DNA from: Populus alba
Taxonomy: Eukaryota > Streptophyta > Magnoliopsida > Malpighiales > Salicaceae
Direction of reading: 5' to 3'
NCBI RefSeq assembly: GCF_005239225.2
Contig: NC_133293.1
Coordinates: 3,472,001-3,536,000 of the forward strand
Length of the DNA stretch: 64,000 nt
The stretch's first letter is position 1. Each line of letters starts with the position of its first letter. The notes under the pieces are model-generated. The model searched no databases. It was not told the origin of the DNA and saw only the letters and a program-made list of their open reading frames with translations. Below, one piece after another: positions 11,996 to 44,664 of the stretch. Both the position numbers and the translations under genes were made by a program.

Positions 11996-11996
11996 G

Positions 11997-15257: not shown

Positions 15258-15433
15258 CATCATCATCATTATTATTATTATTACTATTATTGTTGTTGTT
15301 GTTGTTGTTGTTGTCTTGTTATTTATAATTTATACAATTAACCTCTCTGTGGTTCAACCCCGGTCTTGTCGGGTTATTTATTACTTCGACACTCCTGCAC
15401 TTGGGAGAAGACATCAAGCTTTTGGTCGTGTCA
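15258..15433 (+). mobile_element. Outer Athila element: 5' LTR, last part
   Basis: Resumes with the internal AT/GTT microsatellite (15258-15315), then 'aacctctctgtggttc' and 'ttattacttcgacactcctg', and ends 'ggtcgtgtca' at 15433. It matches the reverse complement of 30756-30900. Confidence 0.8.
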
Positions 15434-15439
15434 AGTTTT

Positions 15440-15455
15440 TGGCGCCGTTGCCGGG
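15440..15455 (+). other. Primer-binding site of the outer Athila element (tRNA-Asp)
   Basis: TGGCGCCGTTGCCGGG, seven bases after the LTR end, is complementary to the 3' end of plant tRNA-Asp (...CCCGGCAACGGCGCCA). One G is missing from the usual GGGG that follows. tRNA-Asp priming is characteristic of Athila/Tat-type elements. Confidence 0.85.
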
Positions 15456-15664
15456 AGGTAAATTCTTGTATAAATTATAATATTTAATTTATTTTCTCTT
15501 TTCACTTTTCATTTTATCTAACTTTTGTTTTCTTTGTTTTGTTTTGTTTCTTTTTCTTCTATTTTCTTTTCTTCCTTTTATTCTATTTTTACACGTGCAT
15601 GAGAGTTTGGTCACGTACATTAAGTGGTTGACTTTGTAGGGTATCCTCATCATTTTCAGAAAAT

Positions 15665-17616
15665 ATGGCCGAAGAAGATAATCAATCGCTTCATAATGAG
15701 AATAATGAGAATAACTGTATGAGAACACTTAGAGACCACATGAATCCCACAAGAACAAGTGCACCCTCATGCATAGTTTTCCCTCCTGATGCATCTCATT
15801 TTAATTTTAAGCCAGACATTATTCAACTTTTACCTTCTTTTCATGGTTTAGACCTAGAAAATCCATACTTGCATTTAAGGGAATTTGAGGAGGTCTGTAA
15901 TATCTATAATGACTCAAATTATAGCATGAACATCATTCGATTAAAGCTTTTTCCTTTTTCCTTAAAAGATCAAGCTAAAACATGGCTACAAAATTTGAGA
16001 CCAGGATCCATTCGCGATTGGGATGAAATGCAACAACAATTTTTAAAGAAGTTTTTTCCGTCTCACAAAACAAACTCTTTCAAAAGACAAATCATCACTT
16101 TCACTCAAAAACCAGGAGAAACATTTTACCAATGTTGGGATAGGTATCGAGATTTGCTTAATACTTGCCCTCATCATGGTTTTGAAACATGGAGATTGGT
16201 TTCACATTTTTATGTAGGTTTAACACCTAGAGATATGCAAATGGTTGAATTGATGTGCAATGGAACTTTCAAAGATAAAGACCTTAATGAAGCAATGCAG
16301 TACCTAGACTTGCTAGCTGAAAATGCTCAAAATTGGGACACCACAGGTACTTATGAGGCACCAAGTAAAACTCAACCTCATACATCTAGTGGAGGTATGC
16401 ACAACCTTAGGGAAGATCATGACCTCTAAGCCAAGTTTGCATCTTTAGCTAGAAAAGTCGAAGCACTTGAATTGAAAAAGAGTGGTCAATTAAAATCTGT
16501 TCAAGACATTGTGTGTCAAATCTGTGAAACCAAGGAACACTAAACAAATGATTGTCCAACTTTGCCTTCTTTTAGGGAATGCCTCCATGAACAAGCTTAT
16601 ACTTTAAACAGTTTCCAAAGACCCAACCATAACCCATACTCACAAACGTATAACCCTGGTTAAAGAAATCACCCAAATTTTAGTTGGAAGACTGATAGCA
16701 ACAACGCACAACTTCACAGCCACCGTTTCAAGCACACCATAATTTTCAAAATTCTCGTGGATATGCACCTCCTTATGCTCCACCTCCTAGAAGAAATCTT
16801 GAGGAAACATTGCATGCATTCATTGAAAAGCAGGAGACAATCAACACTCAACTTGCTCAAAGCATGACAGATTTTAAAGATGCTCTTGCAAAATTAACAT
16901 CTGCTCTTAGTTTCCAAGAGAAAGGTAAGTTTCCATCTCAATCACAGCAAAATCCAAAAGGGAAATACAATGAAAATGCTAGTAGTTCTGGAAGCCAACA
17001 CATGGATCAAGTCAAATCAGTCATCACTCTTCGTAGTGGTAAGGTTATTGAAAATCCATTCTTGAACCTTGTGAGAAAGATGATGAGTCTATCTCTGAGG
17101 GTAAGGAAGGGGTTGAACCTGAACATTGCAAAGAAAAGGCTAATTGCCCGCCAGCACTTCCATTTCCTTATGCCATGAACAAACAAAGGAAAGTCAATCA
17201 CAACTCTGAAATCTTTGAAACTTTCAAACAGGTAAGGATCAATATACCTTTGTTGGATGCTATTAAACAGGTTCCTTCCTATGCTAAATTTTTGAAAGAT
17301 CTATGCACTGTGAAGAGAAAACTGAATGTGAAAAAGAAAGCCTTTTTAGCCGAACAAGTAAGTGCCATTCTTCAAAACAATAATGCTTTGAAATATAAAG
17401 ACCCTGGTTGTCCTACAATTTCTTGCTTTATTGGAGAACATAAAATTGAAAGAGCCTTACTTGATCTTGGAGCTAGTGTGAATTTACTTCCATATTCAGT
17501 CTTTCAAAGTCTCAATCTAGGTGAGTTAAAACCAACCTCTATAACTCTTTTACTTGCTGATAGATCTGTAAAAGTGCCTAGAGGAATAGTTGAGGATGTG
17601 TTAGTACAAGTTGATA
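15665..17616 (+). pseudogene. Athila gag and protease of the outer element
   Basis: The ATG at 15665 opens a 254-residue frame with the gag core: LPSFHGLDLENPYLHLREFE, then AKTWLQNLRPGSIRDWDEMQ, FYQCWDRYRDLLNTCPHHGF and VSHFYVGLTPRD. A stop at 16427 ends it, but the frame continues past it to a zinc knuckle C-x2-C-x4-H-x4-C (CQICETKEH-stop-TNDC) near 16516-16560, itself interrupted by a stop. Further pieces at 16810-17178 and 17175-17615 end in the protease, with the Athila-type active site LLDLGASVNLLP at about 17458-17493. At about 17616 the protease joins directly to the integrase tail, with the rest of pol deleted. Confidence 0.88.
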
Positions 17617-17973
17617 AAATTACAAATAAATGAGCTTGAGGAAATTAGAAATGATGCATATGACAATTCAAGAATTCATAAAGCAAGAATCAAAGAGTTT
17701 CATGACAAGAAAATACTGAGAAAAACATTCAATGTTGGTCAAAAAGTCTTGCTTTATGATTCTCGACTCCATTTATTTCCTGGAAAACTAAGATCAAGAT
17801 GGAGCGGTCCTTTTATTGTGAAACATGTGTATCCATATGGGGCCTGTGATATCGAGAATCCAAAGAATGACAATGTTTTCAAGGTAAATGGGCATCGGTT
17901 GAAAGTTTATTTTGATAATTTTTCAGTTGAAAATGACTCTACTGAATTGAGTGATCATGTATATAAAGATTGA
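17617..17973 (+). pseudogene. Athila integrase C-terminal remnant, outer element
   Basis: Begins at the deletion joint and reads [20 protein letters not shown], then [40 protein letters not shown] and a stop after DHVYKD. This is the same as the last 115 residues of the inner element's integrase (25622-25269). Core catalytic residues are missing, so no function is possible. Confidence 0.88.
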
Positions 17974-18183
17974 TTATTTTTCTCATATTGTTTTGTGTTT
18001 GTTTTGGTGTATCTTTTGTTTTGTTAGTTTCTCTCACCCTGGTCAAATGGCGGATAACGGTACTCCGTGACTCTTAAGTTGGTTCTTTCAGTTTCCCATG
18101 ATAACTAATATCTGTGTATATAATTGTGCAATTCTCTGCTCTTTCTTCTTTCGTTGAATCTCCCATCCAATTCTCATTTGAAA

Positions 18184-18733
18184 ATGGACACCACTCTTGA
18201 AAAATTGAAAAAGTATTTTCCCGCTCTGCCTCAGAATACGATTACAAAAATTTACCGTGCTAGGTGTGAAAGATTTGAGGTTGTTAATGAACCATGGAAT
18301 TCCTGAAGATATTTGTTGGCTGATTGAAGCAAAGGTCTGATTATCAGGCGAGTCCTCCAATTCTTTCATTTCACACATGCCTAGAACAGGTAAAAGCACT
18401 TTTGCAAAGAAACGTCATGCAAAACGACTGAAAGTCTATCACAGATGTGCCAGATGGACTTGTAATGCGACATGTCGTTCTTTAGGAATGGTATCTGTAA
18501 ACCGTGAAGATAAAATACAATTCATTAAGGATGGCCTGAGTAAGGGGTCTTTAGATAATCTTTTGTTGACCCTTGAGACGCATCCTAGTGGAGATGTGCA
18601 TCGTATAATTCATGATTTATGGCCACAATTCCATAAAGAACATGATCGACTTAGTCTTGGGAATCTGACTAAAAAAGACCCTGTTTGCCAGTTTTTAAGA
18701 AAACTGGATGGGAAGCCTATCCCTGACCCATAG
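18184..18733 (+). pseudogene. ORF X, outer copy: cysteine-rich, carlavirus NABP-like protein
   Basis: Second extra gene of the Athila element, 210 bp after integrase and 240 bp before the LOG frame. It starts MDTTLEKLKKYFPALPQN at 18184 and ends DGKPIPDP-stop at 18733; when open it would be about 182 residues. Broken here by an extra T near 18275 and a stop replacing Arg at about 18339. The centre has a basic run (KSTFAKKRHAKRLK) followed by H-R-C-A-R-W-T-C-N-A-T-C; the first cysteine of the set is Tyr in this copy. A GIPEDI-type block, basic run, Cys cluster and later FIKDG recall the nucleic-acid-binding protein of carlaviruses. That is a motif-level judgement; see the inner copy for the intact cysteines. 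Confidence 0.6.
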
Positions 18734-18860
18734 AGGATGTTTAAGCCGTTCTTGGACGTAAAACCAAGGGAAGATGTGAGCCACAATCACAACTACCTGT
18801 ACATACATGCTTTGTCAAAATAAATAAATAAAGAGAGAGAGAGTGTGAGACTACAGCTGG

Positions 18861-18872
18861 CCTATATATAGG
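18861..18872 (+). promoter_or_regulatory. Possible TATA box upstream of the outer LOG copy
   Basis: CTATATATAGG lies about 110 bp before the LOG start position. After it comes a pyrimidine-rich stretch (18900-18945) resembling a plant 5' untranslated leader. In the inner copy the equivalent site reads 'ctacatgtagg' (24379-24389), so the box is not conserved. Weak evidence only. Confidence 0.35.
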
Positions 18873-18973
18873 TGGTATGATTGCATTTTCACTTTTTCAT
18901 CTATAAATTCTTCTCTTCCTTCCCTTCATTTCTACTCATCCCATACATTCATCAAATATAGAAGTGTGTAGAA

Positions 18974-19624
18974 TTGACAGGTTCCTCAAGTCATCACATA
19001 AGAAATATTTGTGTTTTCGGTGGATCCAGCCCTAGGAAAGAAAAGGAGTTTTTAGAATCAGCAAATCATCTTGGTCAAGTACTAGCTGAGAGAAAGATTC
19101 ATTTAGTGTATGTGGGAGGCAGCTTTGGGTTAATGGGTGTTTCAATGGCTGCATTTTTAGGAGGCAGTCAAGTTTTGGGGGTTGTCCCTAAAGCTTTGAC
19201 AAATGGGGACATCAATGGAAAAATAATTGGAGAGGAAGTACAGGTTCCAACATTGTCTGATCGACTAAATGCCATGTTTAGCCATGCTGATGCCTTCATT
19301 GCCTTACCAGGTGGTCTGGGCGCATTGGAAGAGATCTTTCATATTTCTTCTTGGGCCCAACTGCACATTCACCATAAACCTATAGGTTTGTTAAATGTTA
19401 ATGGTTTTTATGATAAGTTGCTGTCTTTCCTTGATCAAGCTGTGGAACAGGAATTTCTAACATCTTCAGCATGCCAAATCATAATCTCTACTGCTACTGC
19501 TGAACAATTGATTGATCAACTACAATCTTTCATCCCTGTCATTGATCCTTGCATGAGTCGCCTAGATTGGTCAGCTAAGGAAAGCCGTAAAAAGCTTAGA
19601 TTAGATTTGAGCCTTCATCTGTGA
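18974..19624 (+). pseudogene. LOG-family cytokinin phosphoribohydrolase carried by Athila, outer copy
   Basis: 216 codons of a LOG protein, which releases active cytokinin bases from cytokinin riboside 5'-monophosphates. N-terminal ICVFGGSSP, VYVGGSFGLMG, the Arg of LSDRLNAMF and the signature region ALPGGLGALEE are all present. The signature Thr of PGGxGT is Ala here. The position equivalent to the start codon of the inner copy is TTG, not ATG, and one Gly codon is missing after GLMG. The first in-frame ATG is internal. No introns, although plant LOG genes normally have several. Probably inactive unless translated from a non-AUG codon. It sits between ORF X and the 3' untranslated end of the retrotransposon. 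Confidence 0.85.
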
Positions 19625-20676
19625 AACCTTGTGTCTTTTGGTTTTATTAATAGCATATTATTTTGTTTTGTTACTTATATTTGTTTAAGTGTGTTTCAGA
19701 TTTGTCATTGTTCGCTGTTTCAGGTGATGTCTTCTATACTCTATCTTTCTACCTTAGGACATTGAGGACAATGTCTCGTTTTGGTTGGGGGGAGAGGGTA
19801 GTAGTTTAAAAAAAAAAAAAAACTAACCAACTAATTGTTTTTGTTTTCACTTGATTCTGCTCATATACTCTTTTAACAAGTATTATTAAACCTTCATTTT
19901 CACACACACACTTTAACATATGATTGTGGGTTGCACATTGGATTATTACATTATTTATATTCTTTTGTTGAAGGTAACAACTAAGGGGAAGGGATAGTAT
20001 ATAATTTGCAAAAAAAAAAATTATTGATAATATTGATGATAATAAAAACGTAGATAAGTTTGGTTTCGTAGCCTCCCTAACCTAAGCAATTAAGCCCGAA
20101 GGGGTGTTTTAACACCTAATACCCTAAAGTCAACTGACTTGGGATCTATTGGCCCAAAGCTTGTTACATGGGTTAAGGAGAAAAGCTTAAGGGAATCAAA
20201 CATTGCACTATCTACGTATCAGTATCTGCAACCCGAGTTGTTTAGCTCGTACGGGTGTCTCAACACCTAATGCCCTAAGACCAACTGGTCTGGGAGTCAT
20301 TAGCCTAAAACTCGTTACATGGGTTAAAGATACATTGTGTTTTATGTTGTATGTGTATATAAATAAAAAAAAAAAAAAAAAAAAAAGTAATAATAATAAT
20401 AATCCTAACCCAAGGAAGTTCACCTTAAACATTTGAACATAATATTGTTTTCTTCCAACAAAAGCCCCATCATCTATGTTTTCATATATTGAGCACATAA
20501 AAAGAAGGTTTATTAATATCTTGTTTAAGAAGTATGAAGCAGTAATATAAATTTAATGAGAGTTTGTTTATCTAGATAGATTAATGGAAGTTGAATGATG
20601 AATGCCTTGCTTTGTGAAACTTGCAACTTGTTTATCTATTTTAACGCTTTAGATTACTAGGGACTAGTAATAAGCT
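19625..20676 (+). other. 3' untranslated end of the outer Athila element
   Basis: Non-coding, with 'ttgaggacaatgtctcg' and a purine tract (GGTTGGGGGGAGAGGG, about 19782-19797) like those that follow pol in Athila/Tat elements. A23 occurs at about 20364-20386. Two imperfect copies of 'cccgaaggggtgttttaacacctaat' / 'tcgtacgggtgtctcaacacctaat' lie at 20096 and 20248. It is inverted relative to 22395-23621. The second purine tract expected at about 20677 is interrupted. Confidence 0.7.
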
Positions 20677-20686
20677 GGTCGTGTCA
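20677..20686 (+). other. Abnormal joint between outer and inner Athila elements
   Basis: 'aataagct' (end of the outer internal region) runs into 'ggtcgtgtca', the terminal ten bases of the LTR in plus orientation. Directly after comes 'gcaggagtgtcg', the inner LTR in minus orientation minus its last ~33 bp. The outer 3' LTR is thus almost wholly missing at this side. Confidence 0.6.
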
Positions 20687-20923
20687 GCAGGAGTGTCGAA
20701 GTAATAAATAACCCGGCAAGACCGGGGTCGAACCACAGAGAGGTTAATTGTATAAATTATAAATAATAACGCAACAATCAAAATAATAACGATAATAATA
20801 ACAATAGTAGTACTAGTAATAGTAATAATAATAATAATACTCAGTACGTGGCGTTGTTATACCTGAGAATGATCTAAAAGATCGGGTCACAGGTTTCCAG
20901 CCTATATACTGAGTTTATGAACA

Positions 20924-20955
<32 letters not shown>

Positions 20956-22381
20956 TAACAATAATAATAAAGAAGAGAAGGAAGAAATTAATGAGAACTT
21001 TGAGTTGAAAGATTAATGTAAGGATTAAACAACGATAAAAATAAATGTCAAGGTTAGAGGATCCACTAATGGTACTTCAAACAAGTATAGTATAAACTCT
21101 TATTACTCCATTGGAAACCACACATAAAGGAGGTTCCAATCAGATTATAAATTATTAACATGATTACATTAGTTATCTTATTCAAATAAAGCTAATACTT
21201 GTAAATGTTGGCAGGCATTCATGATTATAACTTATGTTAACAACAAATCAAGTTCCTTTCATAGCTCAGGTGTCGGTTATACCATACAGTATGGGCTATG
21301 AAAGTACCAAGTATTTGTTGTACCAAGTGTTATACAACATAAATCTAGATTAACCATTTAACAAGCAAAGTATTAAAAGTGAACAAGATAACAAATATAA
21401 AACATGTTAGTATCCAACGTTAAGGTCCATGTTAAGTTTATATTATACTTATTCTTACACCATTAGTGTACCCTTTTCACCTTGACATAATTAACTTAGC
21501 TAAACATAATGAAAGAAAGAAACATAGATGAACAAGATAAGAACATAAATGAGAAAGAAGTTAACTAAGTAAAGGAAAGGAAATGAAGTGCATAAACTTG
21601 ATATTAATGAAAGCAAAACATAAGCAATACAAAGAGAGAAAGCAAGAGCATGATCTTGATCTGGAAACCAAGATGCCTCAATACATGGTAAGTGCCTCCT
21701 TTTATAGGCCAAAATTTGGAACTATTGATTTGTTAATTAATTGATGAGTGGGTGGCCACATCTTGACTTGGTGACAATCCTTATCTTCTTGTCTGAACAA
21801 GACGTCATTGCTAACATCATAATTTTCCCAGAATCCTCAGGAATGTTCTAGGAAATTGTCTCATCTTTCCAACAAAAAAAAGATGAGGTCATTTGGACTT
21901 CTAGAACTCAAGATATGGGTTGAACACTAAATAGTGTCTAGGCTGCAGGACAGCTTCGGACTTCTTCGTTGTTCCTTCAGTTTGGACTTCAAAACAGCCT
22001 TTTTAAATCTTGGGCTCCCCATGAAAGTTGTAGGCCTTTGTCTTACCTTTCCATCCATATAAAATGGACCTAAATCCGAGATCTAGAGCTCCAGATATGA
22101 TCCAATTACCGAGCAATGTTCTGGTTTGGACTGCACCGGCATCTCTTTTCTAAGTTTGGCCATCTCTTTGTCCTTTCACTTTCAATACTTAAACTCATCA
22201 ATCAATCCTTTTATTTATGTGATAGGCCTTCATTTAAAATGAGCATTTACCATAAATTAAGGTATCTTATAGTATCAAACTTGTTATTATAAAACATGCT
22301 TTAGTTAAGGAGTTATTGATACTTCAAGTGCAAAATGATGATATAAAACCTTGATAAACATGTACTTTTAAGTACTAATCA
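20687..22381 (-). mobile_element. 3' LTR of the inner Athila element, 1,695 bp
   Basis: Matches the 5' LTR at 30756-32485 end to end except for the last ~33 bp, which are replaced at the joint. It starts TGATTAGTAC at 22381 and contains ATT/ATA microsatellites at about 20780-20845 and 20920-20970. The two LTRs differ by scattered single-base changes and small indels, so the insertion is relatively young but not brand new. Confidence 0.88.
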
Positions 22382-22394
22382 CACCCCCCAACCA
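22382..22394 (-). other. Polypurine tract of the inner Athila element
   Basis: TGGTTGGGGGGTG on the minus strand, immediately before the LTR start TGATTAG. Confidence 0.8.
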
Positions 22395-23621
22395 GCTTAT
22401 TACTAGTCCCTAGTAATCTAAAGTGTTAAAATAGAGAAACAATTTGCAAGTTTCACAAAGCAAGGCATTCATCATTCAACTTCCATTAATCTATCCAGAT
22501 AAACAAACTCTCTTTAAATTTATATTACTGCTTCATACTTCTTAAACAAGATATTAATAAACCTTCTTTTTATGTGCTCAATATATGAAAACATAGATGA
22601 TGGGGCTTTTGTTGGAAGAAAACAATATTATGTTCAAATGTTTAAGGTGAACTTCCTTGGGTTGGGATTATTATTATTATTATTTTTTCTTCTCTTTTTT
22701 TATTATTTTTTTTTTATTTTTATTTATATACACATACAACTTAAAACATAATGTATCTTTAACCCATGTAACGAGTTTTAGGCTAATGACTCCCAGACCA
22801 GTTGGTCTTAGGGCATTAGGTGTTGAGACACCCCTACGAGCTTAACAACTCGGGTTGTAGATACTGATACATAGATAGTGCAATGTTTGATTCCCTTAAG
22901 CTTTTCTCCTTAACCCATGTAACAAGCTTTGGGCCAATAGCTTCCAAGTCAGTTGACTTTAGGGTATTAGGTTAAAACACCCCTTCGGGCTTAATTGCTT
23001 AGGTTAGGGAGGCTACGAAACCAAACTTATCTACGTTTTTATTATCAACAATATTATCATTTTTTTTTTGCAAATTATATATTACCCCTTTTCCTTAGTT
23101 GTTACCTTTAACAAAAGAACATAAATAATGTAATAATCCAATGTGCAACCCACAATCATATGTTAAAGTGTGTGTGTGAAAATGAAGGTTTAATAATACT
23201 TGTTAAATGAGTATATGAGCAGAATCAAGTGATAACAATGCGAGAGTTTGTAAACCTGAATATTTCAAGAAGTATTCTAATAGGCCTTGTTATGAATATT
23301 GCAAATAACCATTAGAAAATTTTTACTACGATGCGTCTCAAGAATAATTCCTCTTTACTCTGCCATCCTAGTAATAACAGTTTTGCCAAATGGTTTTTTA
23401 ACAACAACAGTTAGTTGGTTATTATTATTTTTTTTAAACTAGTACCCTCTCCCCCCCAACCAAAACGAGACATTGTCCTCAATGTCCTAAGGTAGAAAGA
23501 TAGAGTATAGAAGACATCACCTGAAACAGCGAACAATGACAAACCTGAAACACACTTAAACAAATATAAGAAGTAACAAAACAAAATAATATGCTATTAA
23601 TAACACAAAAGACACAAGGTT
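22395..23621 (-). other. 3' untranslated end of the inner Athila element
   Basis: Inverted counterpart of 19625-20676. It carries about 170 bp (23240-23420) not present in the outer copy, so the outer one has lost it or this one gained it. The purine tract and 'gaggacaatgtctcg' are present on the minus strand at 23448-23490. Confidence 0.7.
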
Positions 23622-24275
23622 TCACAGATGAAGGCTCAAATCTAATCTAAGCTTTTTACGGCTTTCCTTAGCTGACCAATCTAGGCGACTCATGCAAGGA
23701 TCAATGACAGGGATGAAAGATTGTCGTTGGTCAATCAATTGTTCAGCAGTAGCAGCAGAGATTATGATCTGTCGTGCCGAAGATGTTAGAAATTCCTGTT
23801 CCACAGCTTGATCAAGGAAAGATAGCAACTTATCATAAAAACCATTAACATTTAACAAACCTATAGGTTTATGGTGAATGTGCAGTTGGGCCCAAGATGA
23901 AATATGAAAGATCTCTTCCAATGTGCCCAGACCACCTGGTAAGGCAATGAAGGCATCAACATGGTTAAACATGGTATTCAGTCGGTCAGACATTGTTGGG
24001 ACCTGTAGTTCCTCTCCAATTGTTTTTCCAATGATGTCCCCATTTGCTAAAGCTTTAGGGACAACCCCCAAAACTTGACTGCCTCCTAAAAATGAAGCCA
24101 TTGAAACACCTCCCATTAACCCAAGGCTGCCTCCCACATACACTAAATGAATCTTTCTCTCAGCTAGTACTTGACCAAGATGATTTGCTGATTCTAAAAA
24201 CTCTTTTTCTTTCCTAGGGCTGGATCCACCGAAAACACAAATATTTCTTATGTGATGACTTGAGGAACCTGCCAT
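23622..24275 (-). CDS. LOG-family cytokinin riboside 5'-monophosphate phosphoribohydrolase carried by Athila, inner copy
   Basis: Intact 217-codon frame with ATG, close to the length of plant LOG proteins. LOG enzymes act in the cytosol and nucleus, hydrolysing the N-glycosidic bond of cytokinin nucleotides to free the active base in one step. Landmarks: ICVFGGSSP (residues 12-20), VYVGGSLGLMGG (46-56), the conserved Arg98 in MSDRLN and the PGGLGTLEE signature at 113-121 with its catalytic Glu. WAQLHIHHKPIGLLNVNGFY follows. The C-terminal ~30 residues after the family's usual end are Lys/Arg-rich. No introns. Neighbours are ORF X (239 bp upstream) and the retrotransposon 3' end. Whether it is expressed or active cannot be seen. 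The family is certain; LOG versus other 'lysine decarboxylase-like' members rests on the high plant LOG similarity. Confidence 0.88.
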   Translation of the reverse strand: MAGSSSHHIRNICVFGGSSPRKEKEFLESANHLGQVLAERKIHLVYVGGSLGLMGGVSMASFLGGSQVLGVVPKALANGDIIGKTIGEELQVPTMSDRLNTMFNHVDAFIALPGGLGTLEEIFHISSWAQLHIHHKPIGLLNVNGFYDKLLSFLDQAVEQEFLTSSARQIIISAATAEQLIDQRQSFIPVIDPCMSRLDWSAKESRKKLRLDLSLHL

Positions 24276-24513
24276 TTCTACACACTTCTATATTTGATGA
24301 ATGTATGGGATGAGTAGAAATGAAGGGAAGGAAGAGAAGAATTTATAAATGAAAAAGTGAAAATGCAATCATACCACCTACATGTAGGCCAGCTGTAGTC
24401 TCACACTCTCTCTTTTTATTTATTTATTTTGACAAAGCATGTATGTACAGGTAGTTGTGATTGTGGCTCACATCTTCCCTTGGTTTTACGTCCAAGAACG
24501 GTTTAAATGCCCT

Positions 24514-25058
24514 CTATGGGTCGGGGATAGGCTTCCCATCCAGTTTTCTTAAAAACTGGCAAATAGGGTCTTTTTTAGTTAGATTCCCAAGACTAAGTCG
24601 ATCATGTTCCTTATGGAATTGTGGCCATAAATCATGAATTACACGATGCACATCTCCACTAGGATGCGTCTCAAGGGTCAATAAAAGATTATCTAAAGAC
24701 CCCTTACTCAGGCCATCCTTAATGAATTGTATTTTATCTTCATGGTTTACAGATACCATTCCTAAAGAACGACATGTCGCATTACAAGTCCATCTGGCAC
24801 ATCTGTGACAGACTTTCAGTCGTTTGCACGACGTTTCTTTGCAAAAGTGCTTTTACCTGTTCCAGGCATGTGTGAAATGAAAGAATTGGAGGACTCACCT
24901 GATAATCGGACCTTTGCTTCAATCAGCCAACGAATATCTTCAGGAATTCCATGGTTCATTAACAACCTCAATCTTTCACACCTAGCACGGTAAATTTTTG
25001 TAATCGCATTCTGAGGCAGAGCGGGAAAATACTTCAATTTTTCAAGAGTGGTGTCCAT
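24514..25058 (-). pseudogene. ORF X, inner copy: cysteine-rich, carlavirus NABP-like protein
   Basis: ATG at 25058, stop at 24514, about 181 residues apart from a one-base deletion near 24829 that shifts the frame after residue 78. Order of features: an alpha-helical N-terminus, GIPEDIRWLIEAKVRLSG (37-54), a GTGKST phrase, the basic run KKRRA-KRLK (74-82), then four cysteines at 84, 87, 92 and 96 (C-x2-C-x4-C-x3-C). MVSVN and FIKDGLSKGS follow, then a 70-residue C-terminal part with no resemblance I recognise. Carlavirus nucleic-acid-binding proteins share the IPxDI-type block, Arg-rich stretch, Cys cluster and downstream FI-x-G, though with wider cysteine spacing. Those proteins bind nucleic acid and act in silencing suppression. 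Function here is unknown; homology is an inference needing a profile search. Confidence 0.6.
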
Positions 25059-25268
25059 TTTTAAATGAGAATTGGATGGGAGATTCAAAGAAAGAAGAAA
25101 GAGCAGAGAATTGCACAATTATATACACAGATATCAGTTATCATGGGAAACTAAAAGAACCGACTTAAGAGTCACGGAGTACCGTTATCCGCCATTTGAC
25201 CGGGGTGAGAGAAACTAGCAAAACAAAAGATACACCAAAACAAACACAAAACAATATGAGAAAAAGAA

Positions 25269-26178
25269 TCAATCTTTATATACAGGATCACTCAATTCAG
25301 TAGAGTCATTTTCAACCGAAAAATTGTCAAAATAAACTTTCAACCGATGCCCATTTACCTTGAAAACATTGTCATTCTTTGGATTTTCGATATCACAGGC
25401 CCCATGTGGATACACATGTTTCACAATAAAAGGACCGCTCCATCTTGATCTTAGTTTTCCAGGAAATAAATGGAGTCGAGAATTATAAAGCAAGACTTTT
25501 TGACCAACATTGAATGTTTTTCTCAGTATTTTCTTGTCATGAAACTCTTTGATTCTTGCTTTATGAATTCTTGAATTGTCATATGCATCATTTCTAATTT
25601 CCTCAAGCTCATTTATTTGCAATTTTCGCAGCTGACTAGCATCATCAATGTTTGAATTGAAAGCTTTAATAGCCCAATAAGCTTTATGTTCAATTTCCAC
25701 AGGCAAGTGACAAGGTTTTCCATAGACTAGTCTATAAGGTGACATACCTAATGATGTTTTATATGCAGTTCGATAAGCCCAAAGTGCATCATTAAGTCTT
25801 AAAGACCAGTATTTCCGATTAGGGTTCACCGTTTTCTCCAAGATCTGTTTGATCTCCCTATTAGCAAGCTCTACTTGTCCACTTGTCTGAGGGTGATAAG
25901 GGGTGGCAACTTTGTGTGTGATTCCATATTTCTTCATTAAAGAAGCAAATGGCTTGTTGTAGAAATGTGTTCCACCATCACTTATTATGGCTCGAGGAAT
26001 TCCAAATCGACTCAAAATATTGTCTTTCAAAAACTTTATCACTGTTTTGTGATCATTTCTTCGACTTGGAATTGCCTCTATCCATTTTGAAACATAATCT
26101 ACCGCGACTAATATGTACACGAAACCAAATGATGGAGGAAATGGACCCATGAAATCTATACCCCAACAATCAAAGATC
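25269..26178 (-). pseudogene. Athila integrase core and C-terminus, inner element
   Basis: A 293-codon open frame (26150-25269) with a complete D,D35E triad counted from its first Met: Asp18 in VAVDYVSKW, Asp58 in IISDGGTHF and Glu94 in [10 protein letters not shown]. Spacing between the second Asp and Glu is 35 residues. [20 protein letters not shown] and the C-terminal [20 protein letters not shown] follow, as in Athila elements. A frameshift near 26165-26180 separates it from the HHCC domain upstream, so the polyprotein is not continuous. All catalytic residues remain, so the damage looks recent. Confidence 0.9.
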
Positions 26179-27366
26179 TCAATGACAAGAATAGGATTTA
26201 AAAGGCATCATGTGACGTTTTGAAATAGATCCCAACCTTTGACAGTTTTCACAAGTCTTGCAGAATGCATGTGAGTTTTTGAACATGGTGGGCCAATAAA
26301 ATCCACTTTGTAAGATTTTTGCAGTTGTCTTTCTTGATGAGAAATGACCCCCACATGCCTCAGAATGACAAAATTTAATGACACTACTTACCTCATTGTC
26401 AGGAATGCATCTTTGAAATATTTGATCAGGACAATATTTGAATAAATAAGGGTCATCCCAATAAAAGTTCACTTCGTTCAAGAACTTTCTTTTGTCTTGG
26501 GTACTCCAATGAGCTGGCAATTGTCCTGAAACAAGAAAATTAACAATATTAGCAAACCAAGGCATCGTACAAACAGAAAGTAAAGATTCATCGGGAAAAT
26601 AGTCATCGATTGGTGTGATGTCAGATTTCGAATCTGTTGTCAATGTTGACAAATGATCTGCAACAACATTTTCGGTGTCTTTCTTGTCTTTGATTGTGAT
26701 ATCAAATTCTTGAAGTAACAAAATCCACCGCACCAATCTAGCCTTAGAATCTTTCTTAGAAAGAAGATATTTCAATGCTGCATGATCACTAAAAACAACA
26801 ACAGGTGAGCCAACAAGATAAGATCTGAATTTATCACAAGCAAATACTACTGCAAGTAATTCTTTTTCAGTGGTGGTGTAATTCATTTGAGCACTATTTA
26901 AAGTTTTACTTGCATATTAAATCACATAAGGTTTCTTATCTTTTCTTTGTCCCAAGACAGCACCCACGGCATAATCACTAGCGTCACACATTATTTCAAA
27001 AGGTAATGACCAATCAGGAGGTTGAATGACAGGAGCAGAAGTAAGCAAGTTTTTAAGTTTAACAAAGGCTTCTTCACAATGTTCAGTCCATTCAAAAATA
27101 TTATCCTTTGTTAGAAGGTTACTTAAGGGCTTAGATATTACACTAAAATCTTTGATGAACCTTCTGTAAAAACCAGCATGTCCTAAGAATGATCTAACAT
27201 CTTTAACAGATTTTGGTGTTGGTAAGTTGGCAATTAACTCGATTTTAGATTTGTCAACCTCAATTCCTTTCGATGAAACAATGTGACCAAGTACAATGTC
27301 GTTTGTTACCATAAAGTGACATTTTTCCCAATTCAATACAAGATTCTTCTCTTCACACCTGCTCAA
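26179..27366 (-). pseudogene. Athila RT thumb, RNase H and integrase zinc domain, inner element
   Basis: Two consecutive frames. 27366-26917 carries the RT connection (FLGHAGFYRRFIKDFS) and the first RNase H Asp (IMCDASDYAVGAVLG). It stops at 26917-26919, then 26886-26179 continues with [13 protein letters not shown] (Glu) and [17 protein letters not shown] (Asp). ENVVADHLS and the integrase HHCC part ([20 protein letters not shown]) follow. The stop at 26917 is a single in-frame change; a frameshift near 27370 separates this part from the RT fingers upstream. Confidence 0.88.
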
Positions 27367-27374
27367 AACCTTTT

Positions 27375-29492
27375 CTAGTTAGTCAAACAATCATCAAATG
27401 AATCACCAAAAATAGAAAAATCATCCATAAAAATTTCAAGAAAACGTTCAACCATATCACTGAATATGCTAAGCATGCATATTTGAAACGTGGCTGGTGC
27501 ATTACATAATCCAAAAGGCATCCTTCGATATGCAAAAGTACCAAATGGACATGTGAAAGTAGTCTTCTCTTGATCTTCCAATGCAATTTCAATTTGATTG
27601 TAACCTGAATAGCCATCTAGGAAACAATAAAATTCATGACCTGCAACTCTTTCTAGGATTTGGTCCATGAAAGGTAAAGGAAAATGATCTTTTCTAGTCA
27701 TTGAATTAAGTTTCCTATAGTCAATGCACATACGCCAACCAGTAACAGTCCTAGTTGGAATTAACTCATTTTTCTCATTCGTTATCACAGTGACTCCAGA
27801 CTTTTTGGGTACAACTTGGGTAGGACTTACCCATTTGCTGTCAGAAATAGGATAAATGATTCCATTATCTAGAAGCTTAATGACTTCATTTTTCACTACT
27901 TCTTTCATATTAGGATTAAGCCTTCGTTGCATTTCTCTAGAGGGTTTAGCATTTTCCTCCAAATAAATCCTGTGTGTGCAAATCAAAGGGCTAATTCCTT
28001 TTATGTCAGTTATGGTCCATCCTAATGCATTTTTATGCATTTTCAGAGTCTGTAATAACTTACCTTTTTGATGTGCATTAAGTTTGGAAGAGATTATTAC
28101 CGGAAAAGTTTCATTTTCTCCCAAAAATGAGTATTTGAGATTAAATGGTAACGGCTTCAATTCAGGTTTTGGTGGTTGAACACTTGAAGGTATGGGCTCA
28201 ATTGATCGTGGTGGCAATTCTTCAATCTGTGGTCTCCAATTGCATGCCTTTGATTCTTCCTGAAAGTAGACCATTTGCAAATCATCAGATTCATCAATCT
28301 CAGTTTCACTAGAAGTGGTTTGAAATTGATCATGAACTAATTTTTCAATAAAGTCCACTTCCTGTAAATCATTATCATCTCCAGGTTGCTTGTAAATGTT
28401 GAAAATATTCATCTCCAATGTCATGTTTCCAAATGATAGCTTCATCAGTCCATTCCTACAATTAATCAATGCATTAGAAGTGGCAAGAAATGGACGTCCT
28501 AAAATGACAGGAATTGAATTACATGCTTCAACAGGTTGTGTATCCAAGACAACAAAATCCACAGGATAAATGAATTTATCGACTTGTACTAACACATCTT
28601 CAACTATTTCTCTAGGCACTTTTACAGATCTATCAGCAAGTAAAAGAGTTACAAAGGTTGGTTTTAACTCACCTAGATTGAGACTTTGAAAGACTGAATA
28701 TGGAAGTAAATTCACACTAGCTCCAAGATCAAGTAAGGCTCTTTTAATTTTATGTTCTCCAATAAAGCAAGAAATTGTAGGACAACCAGGGTCTTTATAT
28801 TTCAAAGCATTATTGTTTTGAAGAATGGCACTTACTTGTTTGGCTAAAAAGGCTTTCTTTTTCACATTCAGTTTTCTCTTCACAGTGCATAAATCTTTCA
28901 AAAATTTAGCATAGGAAGGAACCTGTTTAATAGCATCCAACAAAGGTATATTGATCCTTACCTGTTTGAAAGTTTCAAAGATTTCAGAGTTGTGATTGAC
29001 TTTCCTTTGTTTGGTCATGGTATGAGGAAATGGAAGTGCTGGCGGGGAATCCGTCTTTTCTTTGCAATGTTCAGGTTCAACCCCTTCCTTACCCTCAAAG
29101 ATAGACTCATCATCTTTCTCACAAGGTTCAAGAATGGGTTTTTCAATAACCTTACCACTACGAAGAGTGATGACTGATTTGACTTGATCCATGTGTTGGC
29201 TTCCAGAACCACTTGCATTTGCATTGTATTGCCCCTTTGAATTTTGTTGTGGTTGAGATGGAAACTTACCTTTCTCTTGGAAACTGAGAGCAGATGTTAA
29301 TTTTGCAAGAGCATCTTTAAAATCTGTCATGCTTTGAGCAAGTTGAGTGTTGACTGTCTCCTGCTTTTCAATGAATGCATGCAATGTTTCCTCAAAATTT
29401 CTTCTAGGAGGTGGAGCATAAGGAGGTGCATATCCATGAGAATTTTGAAAATTATGATGTGCTTGAAACGGTGGCTGCTGAAGTTTGTGCAT
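27375..29492 (-). pseudogene. Athila gag C-terminus, protease and RT, inner element
   Basis: Longest frame of the window, 705 codons. Residues 1-190 are the gag tail with the basic, Gln-rich linker. The protease has ALLDLGASVNLLPYSVFQSL near 234-253 and VILGRPFLAT further on. RT runs from about residue 510: SKWVSPTQVVPKKSG, WRMCIDYRKLNSMTR, CFLDGYSGYNQI, RMPFGLCNAPATF and the catalytic FMDDFSIFGDS near 690. The ORF ends within the RT palm at a frameshift (about 27372) and continues in the next feature. Compared with the outer copy, this element keeps the 2.95 kb lost there. Confidence 0.92.
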
Positions 29493-30517
29493 TTGTTTCT
29501 ATCACTCTTCCAACTGAAATTTTGGGTGATTTCTCCAACCAGGGTTGTACATTTATGAGTATGGGTTATGGTTGGGTCTTTGGAAACTGTTTAAAGCATG
29601 GGCTTGTTCATGGAGGCATTCCTTAAAAGAAGGCAAAGTTGGACAATCATTTGTTGAATGTTCATTGGTTTCATAGATTTGACACACAATGTCTTGAACA
29701 GATTTGTTGAATGTTCAAGTGCTTTGACTTTTCTAGCTAAAGATGCAAACTTGGCTTGGAGGTCATGATCTTCCCTAAGGTTGTGCATACCTCCACTAGA
29801 TGTATGAGGTTGAGTTTTACTTGGTGCCTCATAAGTACCTGTGGTGTCCTAATTTTGAGCATTTTCGGCTAGCAAGTCTAGGTACTCCATTGCTTCATTA
29901 GGGTCTTTATCTTCGAAAGTTCCATTGCACATCAATTCAACCATTTGCCTATCTCTAGGTGTTAAACCTTCATAAAAATGTGAAACCAATCTCCATGTTT
30001 CAAAACCATGATGTGGGCAAGTATTAAGCAAATCTCGATACCTATCCCAAACATTGGTAAAATGTTTTCTCCTGGTTTTTGAGTGAAAGTGAATGATTTG
30101 TCTTTTGAAAAAGAATTTGTTTCTGTGAGATGGAAAAAACTTCTTTAAAAATTGTTGTTGCATTTCATCCCAAGCACGAAATGGATCCTGTCTTAAATTC
30201 TGTAGCCATGTTTTAGCTTTATCTTTAATGAAAAAGGAAAAAGCTTTAATCAAAATGGTGTTCATGCTACAATTAGAGTCATTATAGTATTACAGACCTC
30301 CTCAAATTCCCTTAAATGCAAAGTATGAATTTTCTAGGTCTAAGCCATGAAAGAAGGTAAAAGTTGAATAATGCTTGGCTTAAAATTAAAATGAGATGCA
30401 TCAGGAGGGAAAACTATGCATGAGGGTGCACTTGTTCTTGTCGGGATTCATGTGGTCTCTAAGTGTTCTCATACGGCTATTCTCATTATGAAGCGATTGA
30501 TTATCTTCTTCGGCCAT
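29493..30517 (-). pseudogene. Athila gag, inner element, frameshifted
   Basis: The ATG (MAEEDNQSLHNEN) is at 30517. The capsid core is readable in 30265-29849: AKTWLQNLRQDPFRAWDEMQ, DRYRDLLNTCPHHGF, VSHFYEGLTPRDRQMVELMC. A frameshift lies near 30410, another near 30290 before the core, and a stop near 29847. The zinc knuckle region (29700-29650) is out of frame and shortened. Orientation and order match the outer gag at 15665. Confidence 0.85.
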
Positions 30518-30732
30518 ATTTTCTGAATAATGATGAGGATACCCTACAAAGTCGACCACTTAATGTACGTGACCAAACTCGCATGCACGTGTAAAAAGAA
30601 AATAAAAGGCAAAGAAAAGAAAATAGAAGAAAAAAGAAACAAAACAAAAACAAAGAAAACAAAAGTTAGATAAAATGAAAAGTGAAAAAGAGAAAATAAA
30701 ATAAATATTATAATTTATACAAGAATTTACCT

Positions 30733-30749
30733 CCCCGGCAACGACGCCA
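30733..30749 (-). other. Primer-binding site of the inner Athila element (tRNA-Asp)
   Basis: TGGCGTCGTTGCCGGGG on the minus strand, seven bases from the LTR end. One transition (C to T) compared with the perfect complement of tRNA-Asp. Confidence 0.82.
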
Positions 30750-30755
30750 AAAACT

Positions 30756-32485
30756 TGACACGACCAAAGGCTTGATGTCTTTTCCCAAGTGCAGGAGTGT
30801 CGAAGTAATAAATAACCCGGCAAAGACCGGGCGTCGAACCACAGAGAGTTAATTGTATAAATTATAAATAACAACGCAACAATCAAAATAATAACGATAA
30901 TAATAACAATAGTAGTACTAGTAATAGTAATAATAATAATAATACACAGTATGTGGCGTTGTTATACCTGAGAATGATCTAAAAGATCGGGTCACAGGTT
31001 TTCCAGCCTATATACTGAGTTTATGAACAGATAATAATAATAAATAATAATAACAATAACAACAATAATAAAGAAGAGAAAGAAGAAATTAATGAGAACT
31101 TTGAGTTGAAAGATTAATATAACGATAAAAATAAATGTCAAGGTTAGAGGATCCACTAATGGTACTTCAAACAAGTATAGTATAAACTCTTATTACTCCA
31201 TTGGAAACCACACATAAAGGAGGTTCCAATCAGATTATAAATTATTAACATGATTAACATTAGTTATCTTATTCAAATAAAGCTTAATACTTGTAAATGT
31301 TGGCAGGCATTCATGATTTATAAACTTATGTTAAACAACAAATCAAGTTCCTTTCATAGCTCAGGTGTCGGTTATACCATACAATATGGGCTATGAAAGT
31401 ACCAAGTATTTGTTCTGTACCAAGTGTTATACAAAATAAATCTAGATTAACCATTTAACAAGCAAAGTATTAAAAGTGAACAAGATAACAAATATAAACA
31501 TGTTAGTATCCAACGTTAAGGTCCATGTTAAGTTTATTACTATACTTATTCTTACACCATTAGTGTACCCTTTCACCTTGACATAAATTAACTTAGCTAA
31601 AACATAATGAAAGAAAGAAACATAGATGAAACAAGATAAGAACATAAATGAGAAAGAAGTTAAACTAAGTAAAGGAAAGGAAATGAAGTGCATAAACTTG
31701 ATATTAATGAAAGCAAAACATAAGCAATACAAATGAGAGAAAGCAAGAGCATGATCTTGATCTGGAAACCAAGATGCCTCAATACATGGTAAGTGCCTCC
31801 TTTTATAGGCCAAAATTTAGAAACTATTGATTTTTTAATGAATTGTTGAGTGGGTGGCCACATCTTGACTTGGTGACAATCTTTATCTTCTTGTCTGAAC
31901 AAGACGTCATTTGCTAACATCATAATTTTCCCAGAATCCTCAGGAATGTTCTAGGAACAAATTGTCTCATCTTTCCAACAAAAAAAAGATGAGGTCATTG
32001 CGGCTTCTAGAACTCAAGATATGGCTGAACACTAAATAGTGTCTGGCGCTGCAGGACAGCTTTGGACTTCTTCTTTCCTTCAGTTTGGACTTCAAAACGG
32101 CCTTTTTAAATCTTGGGCTCTTCATGAAAGTTGTAGGCCTTTGTCTTACCTTTCCATCCTTATAAAATGGACCTAAATCCGCAGATCTAGAGCTCCAGAT
32201 ATGATCCAATTACCAAGTAAAATGTTCCGGTTTGGACTGCATCGGCATCTCTTTTCTAAGTTTGGCCATCTCTTAGTCCTTTCCTTTCAATACTTAAACT
32301 CATCAATCAATCCTTTTATTTATGTGATAGGCCTACATTTAAAATGAGCATTTACCATAAATTAAGGTATCTTATAGTATCAAACTTGTTATTATAAAAC
32401 ATGTTTAGTTAAGGAGTTATTGATACTTCAAGTGCAAAATGATGATATAAAACCTTGATAAACATGCACTTTTAAGTACTAATCA
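30756..32485 (-). mobile_element. 5' LTR of the inner Athila element, 1,730 bp
   Basis: Starts TGATTAGTAC at 32485, ends GGTCGTGTCA at 30756, followed by a PBS. Collinear with 20687-22381. Contains ATT/AAC microsatellites at about 30890-30945 and 31030-31075. Its outer edge abuts the terminal piece of the outer element's LTR. Confidence 0.9.
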
Positions 32486-32524
32486 CCTGCACTTGGAGAA
32501 TACATCAAGCTTTTGGTCGTGTCA
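32486..32524 (+). mobile_element. Last 39 bp of the outer Athila 3' LTR
   Basis: 'cctgcacttggagaatacat' and onward to 'ggtcgtgtca' matches the LTR end at 15395-15433. It is followed by the duplicated target ggggt and resumed LTR B, so this is the true right border of the outer element. The inner element therefore integrated in, or recombined with, the outer 3' LTR. Confidence 0.78.
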
Positions 32525-32672
32525 GGGGTCTCCGTTTCCAATAGTGCTGGTGCCTAGTACAAGTTATCTTTGTGTCACCACTGCCTATCAAACCTGATTT
32601 TACTTGGCTTTCTGGGAATTGGTGTCTTTGTGTGTGGGTTGCATGGACCATGTGATCACGAGGTTCGCATCA
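32525..32672 (+). mobile_element. LTR B copy, right part
   Basis: Resumes with 'ctccgtttccaatagtgctgg' and runs to GGTTCGCATCA at 32672. Joined to 11118-11995 it gives a complete LTR of about 1,020 bp, agreeing with the 1,051-bp solo LTR. Confidence 0.8.
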
Positions 32673-33212: not shown

Positions 33213-36200
33213 ATGCTACACCATGTAAACAGCCTCTGCCAAACTCCTGTAAAACATTTTAGAGCGATCCCAATGGTTGGATCTATAGTTATGGACCTTT
33301 TGGCCCGATTACTCTGGTCATGATGGTGATTTTTTTTTTTTATTGGGGGGGGGGGGGGGCCCGACCGGACGCGTCGTCGACGTGGAGTATCGATTCCACG
33401 CTACTCCATGTAAAACAGCCCTCCGAAAACTCCTGAAAAACATTTTAGAGCGATCCAACGGTCAGAGCTATATTTGTTATGGATCTGCCCCTCTTTGGGC
33501 CGTACTCTGGTCTGTAGTGGTATTGCCCAACTGTATGTCGTCGGCGTGGAGTACTAGTCTACCACTACTCCATTGAAACAAACAACCAACAGCCTCCGAA
33601 AACTTCTGAAAAACATTTTAGAGAGATCCAACGGTCCTAATGGAATATCTTTAGTTAACCTTTTGCAAGAGCTGAAAGCCAGTACTGTCTTTGGTCGTGA
33701 CTTTCTCTGTTATTATTGTTATTGCGTGACTATATGTTGTCTGATTAGAGTACCACTTCCACTCTACTCCATGTAAACAACCTCTGAAAATCCTGAGTAA
33801 AACATTTGAGAGTGATCGATCGGTCGGATCTATATTATGCAGACTTTTGGCCCGATACTCTGGTCGTGTCGGTGATATTACCCCGAATCCCACACCGGAC
33901 GTAGTCGGCGTGGAGTATCGATTCCACGATACTCCATGTAAAAACAGCCTCCGAAAACTCCTGATAAAACATTTAGAGCGATCCAATGGCTCAGTCCAAT
34001 CTTTAGTTATCTCTGGACCATTTTGAGCCAGTGCTCAGTTGTGTCCGTGGTATTGCATCCTGACCGTATGTCGATTGATCTGACTAGAGTACCGCTTCCA
34101 CTCTACTCCATGTGAAACAGCCTTTGAAAACTCTTGTAAAACATTTTAGAGCGATTCCAATGACCTATGTCGGAGTATAGTTATGCACCTTTGGCCCGAT
34201 ACTCTGGTCGCGTCAGGTAATGTTATACCCCCGACCGGACGTCGTCGGTCCTATGTAGATGTACCCATTCCACGCTACTCCATGTAAAAAACAACCTCTG
34301 AAAACTCCAGAAAAAACATTTTAGAGCATCCAACGGTCGGAATCTATAGTTATGAAACTTTTGGGTCGGTACTCTAGTTGTGTCGGTTGTATTGCACGAC
34401 TGTACGTCGTCGAACTAGAGTACTGATTCCATGCTAATCCATGTAAAAGAGCCTCCAGAAGCCTCCTGAAAAGCATTTTAGGGCGATCCAAAGGATAGAT
34501 CTTTAGTATGATGGACCTTTTGTGCCGGTAACTCTCGGCAGCTGGATGTCGGTGATGTTCCCGACCGTACGTCGTCAGGGTGGACTACCGAGTCCACCCT
34601 ACTCCATGTAAACCAACCTCCGGAAACTCCTGAAAAAACATTTTAGAGCGATCCAACGGTCCGATCTTTAGTTATGGACCTTTTGCGTCGGTACTCTAGT
34701 CATGTCGGTGGGCGGTACGGCCTGACCGGACGTCGTCAGAGTGGAGTACCCAAACCACCCTACTCGATGTAAAACAGCCTCCGGAAACTCCTGAAAAACA
34801 TTTTAGAGCGATCCGACGTTCCGATCTTTAGTTATGGACCTTTTGCGACTGACGGCGGTACTTTCGTCATATCGATGTAGGGTCCGACCGCACGTCGTCG
34901 GAACGCTCGTGTAGTAACGAGTCCATGCACCTGTATGTTAAAACAGCATCCAGAAACTCCCTCATAAAAACATTTATAGACGATCCCAAGGTCCGATCTT
35001 TAGGTATGGACCTTTTGTGCAGCACAATACGCTGCCGGTACTCTAGTGGTGCCGGTGATAGGGCCCGACCGGATGTCGTCGGAAATGTTCACTACTAGTA
35101 ACGATTCCACGCTACTGTATGTGAAACAGCCTCCAGAAACTCCTGAAAAGCTATTAACAATATCTCCACTTCATTTTAGGGCGATCCAAAGGACAGATCT
35201 TTAGTTATGGACCTTTTGTGCCGGTACTCTGGTGGTGTCGGTGATGTTGCCGACCGTACGTCGTCAGTCTAAGGGTGAGGACTCACCGAATCGCACCCTA
35301 CTCCACTGTAAACCAGCCTCCGGAAACTCCTGCAAAAACATTTAGAAGCGATCCAAAAGGTCCGATCTTTAGTTGTGGACCTTTTGTGCCCTCATGAGTA
35401 CTCTCAGCAGGTGGCTGCCGGTGATAGGGCTATACACATCCCGACCGGATGTCGTCGAGTGTAAGTAACGATTCCACGCTATTTGTATGTGAAACAGCCT
35501 CCAGAAACTCCTATCAAAAGCATTTTAGGGCTTCGATCCAAAGGTACCCCCAGATCTTTTAGCTATGGAACTTTTGTCGCTGGGCTAGTCTTCAGGGTAC
35601 TCTGGTCAAGCCACGCCATGCGGCGATAGGGGCTCAATACCGACCGGACCGACCGTATGTCGTCGGACTGAGTGCTAACACTATCTCTCCAACGTCACTT
35701 GTGATCTCCCCGCGTGAAACTAGTGTATGTGTAACACCGCCTCCAGGAAACTCCTGTCTTAAAACATTTTAGAGCGATCCAGTTAAATGTAAATCAAAAG
35801 ATCTTTAGAATGATTATTGGACCATCTTGTCAGCCGCCAAGCCAGTAGCATACGCTGTTGCAGTACGACTCTACCCTGCAACTATCTTCGCGCGACGTGC
35901 CTCACCCTGTGGTGATAATCCTAAAGGTGCGACAGATAGGGCCCGATTACCGGATGGTCGTCGGAGTTCACACTGTACTAAACGATTCCACGTTTACTGT
36001 TTGTGAAACAGCCTCCAGAAACTCCTGAAAGGATAAGTTCAATTAGCGGCGATCCAAAGGTCCCACCGATGCACCTTCGCGATAGTTATGGACCTTTTTT
36101 GCACGGCTCAACCACACTATGTGTACTCTGGTGTTGTCCCACCCGGTGATGTTGCCGACCGCCATCCCTACTCTCATCGTCAGGGTGAAGAACTACCGAA

Positions 36201-44580: not shown

Positions 44581-44588
44581 GCTCTAGC

Positions 44589-44664
44589 TAAGAAAATATT
44601 GATACTTCAAGTGCAAAATGATGATATAAAACTTTGATAAAAATACACTTTTAAGTACTAATCT
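44589..44664 (-). mobile_element. Third Athila LTR, first 76 bp
   Basis: 'gatacttcaagtgcaaaatg' through 'cttttaagtactaatc' matches the LTR start at 22381 and 32485 with a few changes. The terminal TG is degraded. Confidence 0.75.

Follow-up and report, generated by a model that had tools for sequence, protein, structure and literature searches.

Host-type reading frames inside plant Gypsy LTR retrotransposons have been described in PMC9289625, where a YgdH (LOG) domain is noted in the Gypsy consensus of Citrus sinensis and Citrus clementina and, once the copy filter is off, also in that of P. trichocarpa; a LOG-type domain thus lies inside Gypsy LTR retrotransposons, including those of a Populus. 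The paper cites Steinbauerova 2011 as an earlier report. A limited literature search found LOG/YgdH in Gypsy elements in this source alone, and its Citrus and P. trichocarpa cases overturn the statement of the first-pass annotation of our locus that no described LOG-carrying LTR retrotransposon was known to it. In the part of the paper available to us, the topic takes up two sentences, without LOG position, residues, selection test, phylogeny, Acer, Xanthoceras or neighbouring ORF. Beyond what is in print, we add five gene models, the separation of the element LOGs from canonical ones, evidence of constraint, and an altered active site and tail. The same source describes a Gypsy family of Phalaenopsis with an AlkB-type m6A demethylase, likewise a host-type enzyme present as an extra ORF in many copies; the demethylase activity was shown in vitro, whereas the member of a hormone-pathway enzyme family dealt with here has a putative activity.

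As to the element itself, the closest described layout is that of Athila with an env-like ORF between pol and the 3' LTR (PMC7264820). The element studied here has a sense additional ORF in the same interval, but, unlike in those Athila, a LOG-type frame comes after it.

The window (the whole stretch of 64,000 nucleotides of Populus alba DNA that was analysed) holds two copies of this element, e1 and e2, whose features are collected in Table 1. The LOG frame in the Athila-like element is confirmed as real: in e2 it matches the Pfam family Lysine_decarbox (PF03641, E 1.3e-36), and AtLOG3 (PDB 2a33) is its best solved relative by sequence (E 1.4e-56). Because 217 open codons coincide with both matches, the frame is far beyond chance, and a chance ORF was rejected; the plus strand has 19 stops across the same interval. 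The R98 and PGGLGTLEE reported earlier were both found in this frame. On the e2 coding strand the order is integrase, further ORF, LOG and 3' LTR, which bears out the placement of LOG between integrase and LTR; its orientation along the element's coding strand also stands, with the correction that this is the minus strand of the window. Among the matches listed, the nearest protein is P0001 of Populus alba (95% identical), while the closest row to the window LOG in the tree is another Populus alba protein, P0060.

Table 1. Coordinates of the two LOG-bearing element copies in the window
Feature	Position	Strand	Remarks
LOG-type frame, e2	23622-24275	minus	217 codons, ATG start, R98, PGGLGTLEE, tail RKKLRLDLSLHL
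LOG-type frame, e1	18974-19624	+	216 codons, TTG for ATG start, one codon missing, T118A
e1 internal region	15434-20671	+	gag 15665-16429, additional ORF 18377-18733, then LOG
e1 LTR tail	15270-15433	+	
Element e2, Athila-like Ty3/gypsy LTR retrotransposon	20683-32486	minus	11.8 kb, decayed
e2 5' LTR	30756-32486	minus	
e2 3' LTR	about 20683-22383	minus	last ~35 bases missing or rearranged
e2 primer binding site	30732-30749	minus	TGGCG(C/T)CGTTGCCGGGG type
e2 polypurine tract	22384-22396	minus	adjoins 3' LTR
e2 integrase frame	25269-26150	minus	Pfam rve
e2 protease/reverse transcriptase frame	27375-29492	minus	Pfam RVT_1
Additional ORF, e2	24514-25118	minus	two frames, between integrase and LOG

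In the 285 bases preceding LOG, we noted a TATAAAT word together with pyrimidine-rich sequence. Within them, the stretch 24443-24276 (minus strand) shows this word followed by a long pyrimidine-rich run, and it is a candidate for an internal promoter, for a 5' UTR taken in with the gene or for a splice acceptor. A sigma-70 promoter scan upstream of LOG, with a model not meant for plants, gave nothing.

Between its LTRs the element has gag, reverse transcriptase and integrase of the Ty3/gypsy type together with a primer binding site and a polypurine tract; Pfam detects Retrotrans_gag in e1 and RVT_1 and rve in e2, the integrase frame of e2 being recognised by rve alone. On the minus strand of e2, gag pieces follow the primer binding site, further pol pieces lie between protease-RT and integrase, and ~1.2 kb without assigned function separates LOG from the polypurine tract. 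The label "Athila-like" is suggested by this layout, by a primer binding site that we take to be tRNA-Asp-like and by the length of the element, close to that of its presumed relatives. The mean length of ATHILA elements in Salicaceae is 11.23 kb (PMC12046899), compared to 11.8 kb here. The Athila ORF-1 domain PF03078 gave no match in the frames searched; since this domain was found in 16% of Athila elements (PMC6317226), so that most of them lack it, its absence does not decide the assignment.

The e2 copy is young, its LTRs showing 43 differences over 1675 aligned columns (K2P 0.026). Its pol frames are broken in at least three places (about 27370, 26900 and 26165) while LOG is open, and therefore e2 is unlikely to be autonomous, as judged from its frames. 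The additional ORF gave no Pfam family above the cut-off, showing weak resemblances to Carla_C4, Viral_NABP and AAA_18 below it, and no match when used as a query against genome contigs. No target site duplication of e2 is readable at either junction, because inverted LTR ends occur at both. These inverted LTR-end pieces (GGTCGTGTCA, plus strand, on each side) were seen at 20660-20700 and 32480-32530; a rearrangement, and not simple nested insertion, thus seems to have brought e1 and e2 together.

The e1 copy is more decayed than e2. It lacks ~2.9 kb of pol, with the deletion junction near 17610, and its LOG motif reads PGGLGALEE. The LOG order is the same and the flanks are collinear in both copies, which differ by 4-6.5% per BLAST piece. 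The first-pass annotation had placed a second LOG copy in e1: the place is indeed the same, but this copy is not intact, having a TTG start, a lost codon, the changed motif and the pol deletion. As the two copies hold an intronless LOG at the same place, the gene was present before they split, in agreement with the earlier reading. Flanking duplications of its own around LOG would point to independent insertion; among words of 7-12 bases within 80 bases of each side of LOG, the two sides have a single 8-base word in common, in matching position in the two copies (12 bases before; 65 and 63 after). This word may be due to chance and, being common to both copies, is no proof of independent insertion, of which the flanks give no sign.

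Other pieces of related elements were seen in the window. The stretch 11960-12279 represents part of a further 3' LTR from this Athila family; it includes a polypurine tract and is cut off at what reads by eye as a chromovirus RNase H-like stretch; 11990-12279 was considered as the 5' LTR of e1 and rejected, since a polypurine tract precedes it, which makes it a piece of another 3' LTR. More LTR fragments lie at 42754-43575 and 44585-44663. A tandem array at 60459-63994 consists of 22.4 copies of a 156-bp unit, and two arrays with longer periods (33740-34847 and 38431-39610) look related to it by eye. Palv156, the centromeric satellite of P. alba var. pyramidalis, also has a 156-bp unit (PMC12046899), the comparison being one of unit length. 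This array, the ATHILA elements and the nearest proteins suggest that the window probably comes from near a centromere in the P. alba group. A 238-codon open frame at 46438-47154 (plus strand), outside the retrotransposons, is possibly part of an ordinary host gene; one assembly gap of 500 N is present, at 42254-42753.

To describe the wider occurrence of the gene, 205 related proteins were collected as those among the matches listed in several searches, which is no census. With both LOG frames masked, the other element parts were matched against these relatives, and among the matches listed at least five of the 205 carry such parts. In Acer yangbiense, P0169 corresponds to the additional ORF (tblastn 4e-57 to e1) with LOG directly after it; in Acer saccharum, LOG comes after gag-pro in P0189 and P0203, the gag-pro part being 74% and 61% identical to e2; and in Xanthoceras, P0140 and P0150 have a gag-pro stretch between LOG pieces. 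All these links come from automatic gene models, according to which LOG is putatively joined to the same element family in two Sapindaceae genera. Viral contigs gave no hit when searched with LOG or with integrase, and one distant locus (L001, 38% identity), left out of the comparisons, when searched with the LOG alignment.

The phylogeny proposed in the first-pass annotation was obtained for 45 rows: 12 canonical LOGs (including AtLOG3 and AtLOG8), nine Populus rows (four of them assigned by similarity), nine Sapindaceae-type rows and 15 unplaced ones, Reevesia (Malvaceae) and Parasponia among them. The element LOGs and the unplaced relatives stand apart in so far as the 12 canonical LOGs are separated from the other 33 rows with support 100/100, and a quick tree with 74 rows gives a like split (13 canonical against 61). 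The nine Populus rows form one clade (99/99), the nine Sapindaceae-type rows group weakly (60/29), and a clade of Populus and Sapindaceae rows without the 15 unplaced ones is rejected (AU p 0.008). The unplaced rows could be ordinary host genes, in which case there were probably at least two captures; if they are element genes, one capture suffices. One capture appears favoured by the tree, because element-linked rows occur both near its base and deep inside it, with long branches throughout.

The maintenance of LOG was judged first from the window pair, for which about 14 replacement and about 5 silent changes had been counted by eye in the first two thirds of the frame; these figures are replaced by 13 and 7 in codons 1-145. 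The whole frame shows 16 replacement and 12 silent changes (NG86 dN/dS 0.38), or 16 and 11 in a second alignment (0.41). The element's own genes span a range that includes these values, the NG86 yardsticks from the same pair being 0.72 for gag-pro, 0.18 for integrase and 0.37 and 0.19 for the additional ORF, with few changes in each. The LOG dN of 0.033 is not below the non-coding divergence (0.033 after LOG and 0.024 before it), and therefore the low ratio rests on a high dS with 11-12 silent changes, for which a one-sided binomial test gives p 0.014 or 0.08 according to the assumed silent share. Compared with the majority of 91 poplar-type proteins of 217 residues, 13 of the 16 replacements are on the e1 side, codon 101 among them by a thin plurality. 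The pair shows selection poorly, because much of its divergence probably postdates insertion (LTR K 0.026) and would reach back to the time when e2 inserted; two copies were rejected as enough to judge selection.

We therefore rely on a family test with 150 poplar-type proteins, which include the window pair and were mostly assigned by similarity. It started from 207 sequences, of which nine fused or extended ones were dropped before alignment. To class the sites, we used their conservation in 41 non-Populus rows; seven further such rows were unused for classing. The parsimony changes per site at the 57 strictest sites, relative to the 160 others, give a ratio of 0.88 on terminal but 0.44 on internal branches; an internal/terminal quotient this low never arose in 2000 shuffles of the class labels, and a Fisher test on the same site classes yields p 6e-7. 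If only 15 canonical LOGs serve to class the sites, the ratios become 0.99 and 0.73 (p 0.005). They are 0.97 and 0.74 (p 0.016) without the 24 rows of the P0102 type, which might be host genes, and 1.01 and 0.72 (p 0.006) for rows of 217 residues only. R98 has eight changes at tips and E121 five, with none on internal branches in either case, while other residues do change internally (P113 three times, G114 two, T118 two, E120 three and G47 six). These results refer to protein data, to open frames as chosen by the databases and to one FastTree topology per run. The pattern is that of a LOG constrained, though not tightly, during element replication and free after insertion, as far as protein alignments reflect it. 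The claim that there is "no sign of constraint" is thus not supported, with a dN/dS of 0.38-0.41 for the pair and internal branches depleted of changes at conserved sites.

The enzyme, if one is made, would differ from known LOGs in the substrate pocket. For CgLOG, a catalytic role has been proposed for Arg99 and Glu122; the adenine site consists of Lys100 with Met96 and Glu121, and the prenyl site of Met96, His97, Lys100, Glu125 and Trp129 (PMC4979012); in CgLOGII, Ala at the matching Arg, Lys (Lys156), Thr or Glu abolished activity (PMC5379747). With the type Ia LOGs AtLOG3, AtLOG8 and CgLOG (PMC4979012, PMC5379747), e2 shares domain homology and keeps Arg, Glu and PGGxGTxxE; unlike them, it has Leu for the adenine Lys, His for Glu125 and Ser for His97. 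In the prenyl site, Met and Trp are kept in e2, and e1 has Leu for Met; the adenine Lys is Leu in e1 too. The first Gly of YGGGS is Val in e1 and e2, the only two such rows of the 150 among the matches listed.

Across the 150 poplar-type rows, the catalytic Arg is kept in 142, the second Glu in 145 and both in 138. The whole motif is present in 87, and at least one of R98, P113, G114, G115, G117, T118, E120 and E121 is missing in 63. The adenine-site Lys is replaced throughout (Leu 93, Met 52, Ile 4, His 1), position 97 is never His, and Glu125 is His in 145. This Lys is present in 14/14 Sapindaceae-type rows (four assigned by similarity) and in 12/12 canonical ones, and Glu125 is also kept in all 14 Sapindaceae-type rows. 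Three of the 22 "other" rows (P0181, P0195 and P0200) are canonical in type; of the remaining 19, 17 have Ile or Met at the Lys position, and P0167 and P0183 retain Lys. The Sapindaceae forms are most likely, by prediction, nucleotide phosphoribohydrolases acting on cytokinin nucleotide, because the canonical pocket residues are kept, and the poplar forms are most likely, again by prediction, altered or reduced in substrate range. The description of the e2 gene as an intact cytokinin-activating one therefore holds for its open frame but not for its pocket, where the adenine Lys and the prenyl Glu and His are replaced, and a cytokinin-activating role of the poplar-type LOG appears doubtful.

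The poplar type also commonly possesses a C-terminal tail that is absent from the canonical LOGs compared. A basic stretch followed by LxLxL (RKKLRLDLSLHL in the window) occurs in 113 of the 121 poplar-type rows of 215-219 residues and, by a loose pattern, in 16 of 18 other rows, in contrast to none of the 15 canonical rows. Twelve of the 14 Sapindaceae-type rows stop right after the basic stretch, P0154 and P0160 ending otherwise. Positions 210-217 show 2.25 terminal and 2.00 internal changes per site, compared to 5.11 and 2.54 overall; with an internal share of changes of 0.47 against an average of 0.33, the tail does not stand out in the branch test. In EAR-motif proteins, LxLxL is bound by a TOPLESS-type co-repressor, and the LxLxL after a basic run presumably resembles an EAR motif with a nuclear signal.

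We consider it rather probable that a captured LOG is kept by selection as an element gene, enzyme-like and, in poplar, biochemically altered. In this explanation, an Athila-like Ty3/gypsy lineage of rosids would have taken a host LOG coding sequence in between the post-integrase ORF and the 3' LTR; the capture of a spliced LOG mRNA, as previously supposed, is plausible as the putative route. LOG would then have been carried as the element's own gene since before the Populus subfamilies split, and its carriage probably predates either the parting of Salicaceae and Sapindaceae or an exchange of the element. Its message may come from the LTR or from some internal or spliced transcript, and would give a protein of presumed LOG fold that retains both catalytic residues, Arg and Glu, as well as the PGGxGT loop for phosphate binding. 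This protein would somehow help the element while it is mobile, and after insertion host mutation would decay each copy.

Recurrent capture is the alternative to such a single event: a divergent rosid host LOG subfamily could have been picked up separately by the Athila elements of Populus and of Sapindaceae. It agrees with the failure of Populus and Sapindaceae LOGs to group without the 15 unplaced sequences (AU p 0.008), with the unlike Lys sites and C-terminal tails of the two groups, and with the naming of P. trichocarpa and P. nigra members as LOGL10 by NCBI. However, the Acer gene models have the same additional ORF and gag-pro along with LOG, the branches outside the canonical group are long, and the P0102 type comprises many variants (24 of 150 rows by motif), unlike a single-copy gene, although species or individuals may be pooled there; we regard separate captures as possible but unlikely. 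A related scenario, compatible with a selected captured LOG, replaces rosid inheritance by horizontal transfer of the LOG-bearing element between Sapindales and Salicaceae. For Acer P0189, gag-pro is 74% and LOG 63% identical to e2, other Acer LOGs reaching 53-61%; yet the LOG distances are large and relatives from Reevesia and Parasponia fall between the two groups in the tree, so that such a transfer looks improbable.

It is equally improbable, in our opinion, that LOG was caught once and simply rides along as a neutral passenger, the open frames reflecting youth and the choice of intact proteins by databases. The youth of e2 (LTR K 0.026) makes an open frame of 651 bases unremarkable alone, databases list open frames only, 63 of the 150 poplar-type rows lack at least one of the eight motif residues, and the LOG dN of the pair equals the non-coding divergence. 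Against this stand the depletion of changes at conserved sites on internal branches, which no shuffle out of 2000 matched, a dN/dS that falls among those of gag-pro, the additional ORF and integrase, and the lack of internal changes at R98 and E121. A false join of a host LOG and a retrotransposon in the assembly could be suspected from the rearranged e1/e2 junction with its inverted LTR ends and from the 500 N gap. We rejected it as exceedingly improbable, since it is contradicted by two collinear copies differing by 4-6.5% per BLAST piece, by at least 120 relatives at 80-95% identity from NCBI, JGI and ENA, and by the same association in Acer and Xanthoceras gene models.

Returning to selection on a captured LOG, we may tentatively suggest a fuller scenario, which we think has a rather small chance of being correct in all its parts. 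One ancient capture would have founded a rosid clade of retrotransposon LOGs, in which the basic LxLxL tail (a nuclear localisation signal plus an EAR-like motif) evolved and the adenine Lys was lost after Sapindaceae branched off. The Populus forms would then be selected element proteins, nucleotide-binding or with altered hydrolase function and not cytokinin-activating, which might enter the nucleus, recruit a co-repressor and act on the host or on the element.

Should the constraint hold, a plant retrotransposon would have long maintained a hormone-pathway enzyme gene as its own. This raises the question of whether the element gains from a change in cytokinin or nucleotide metabolism or has found a new use for the LOG fold. 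Moreover, some of the LOG or LOGL10 annotations in poplar, maple and Xanthoceras may refer to genes of transposons, and LOG family counts and expression studies would then be distorted.
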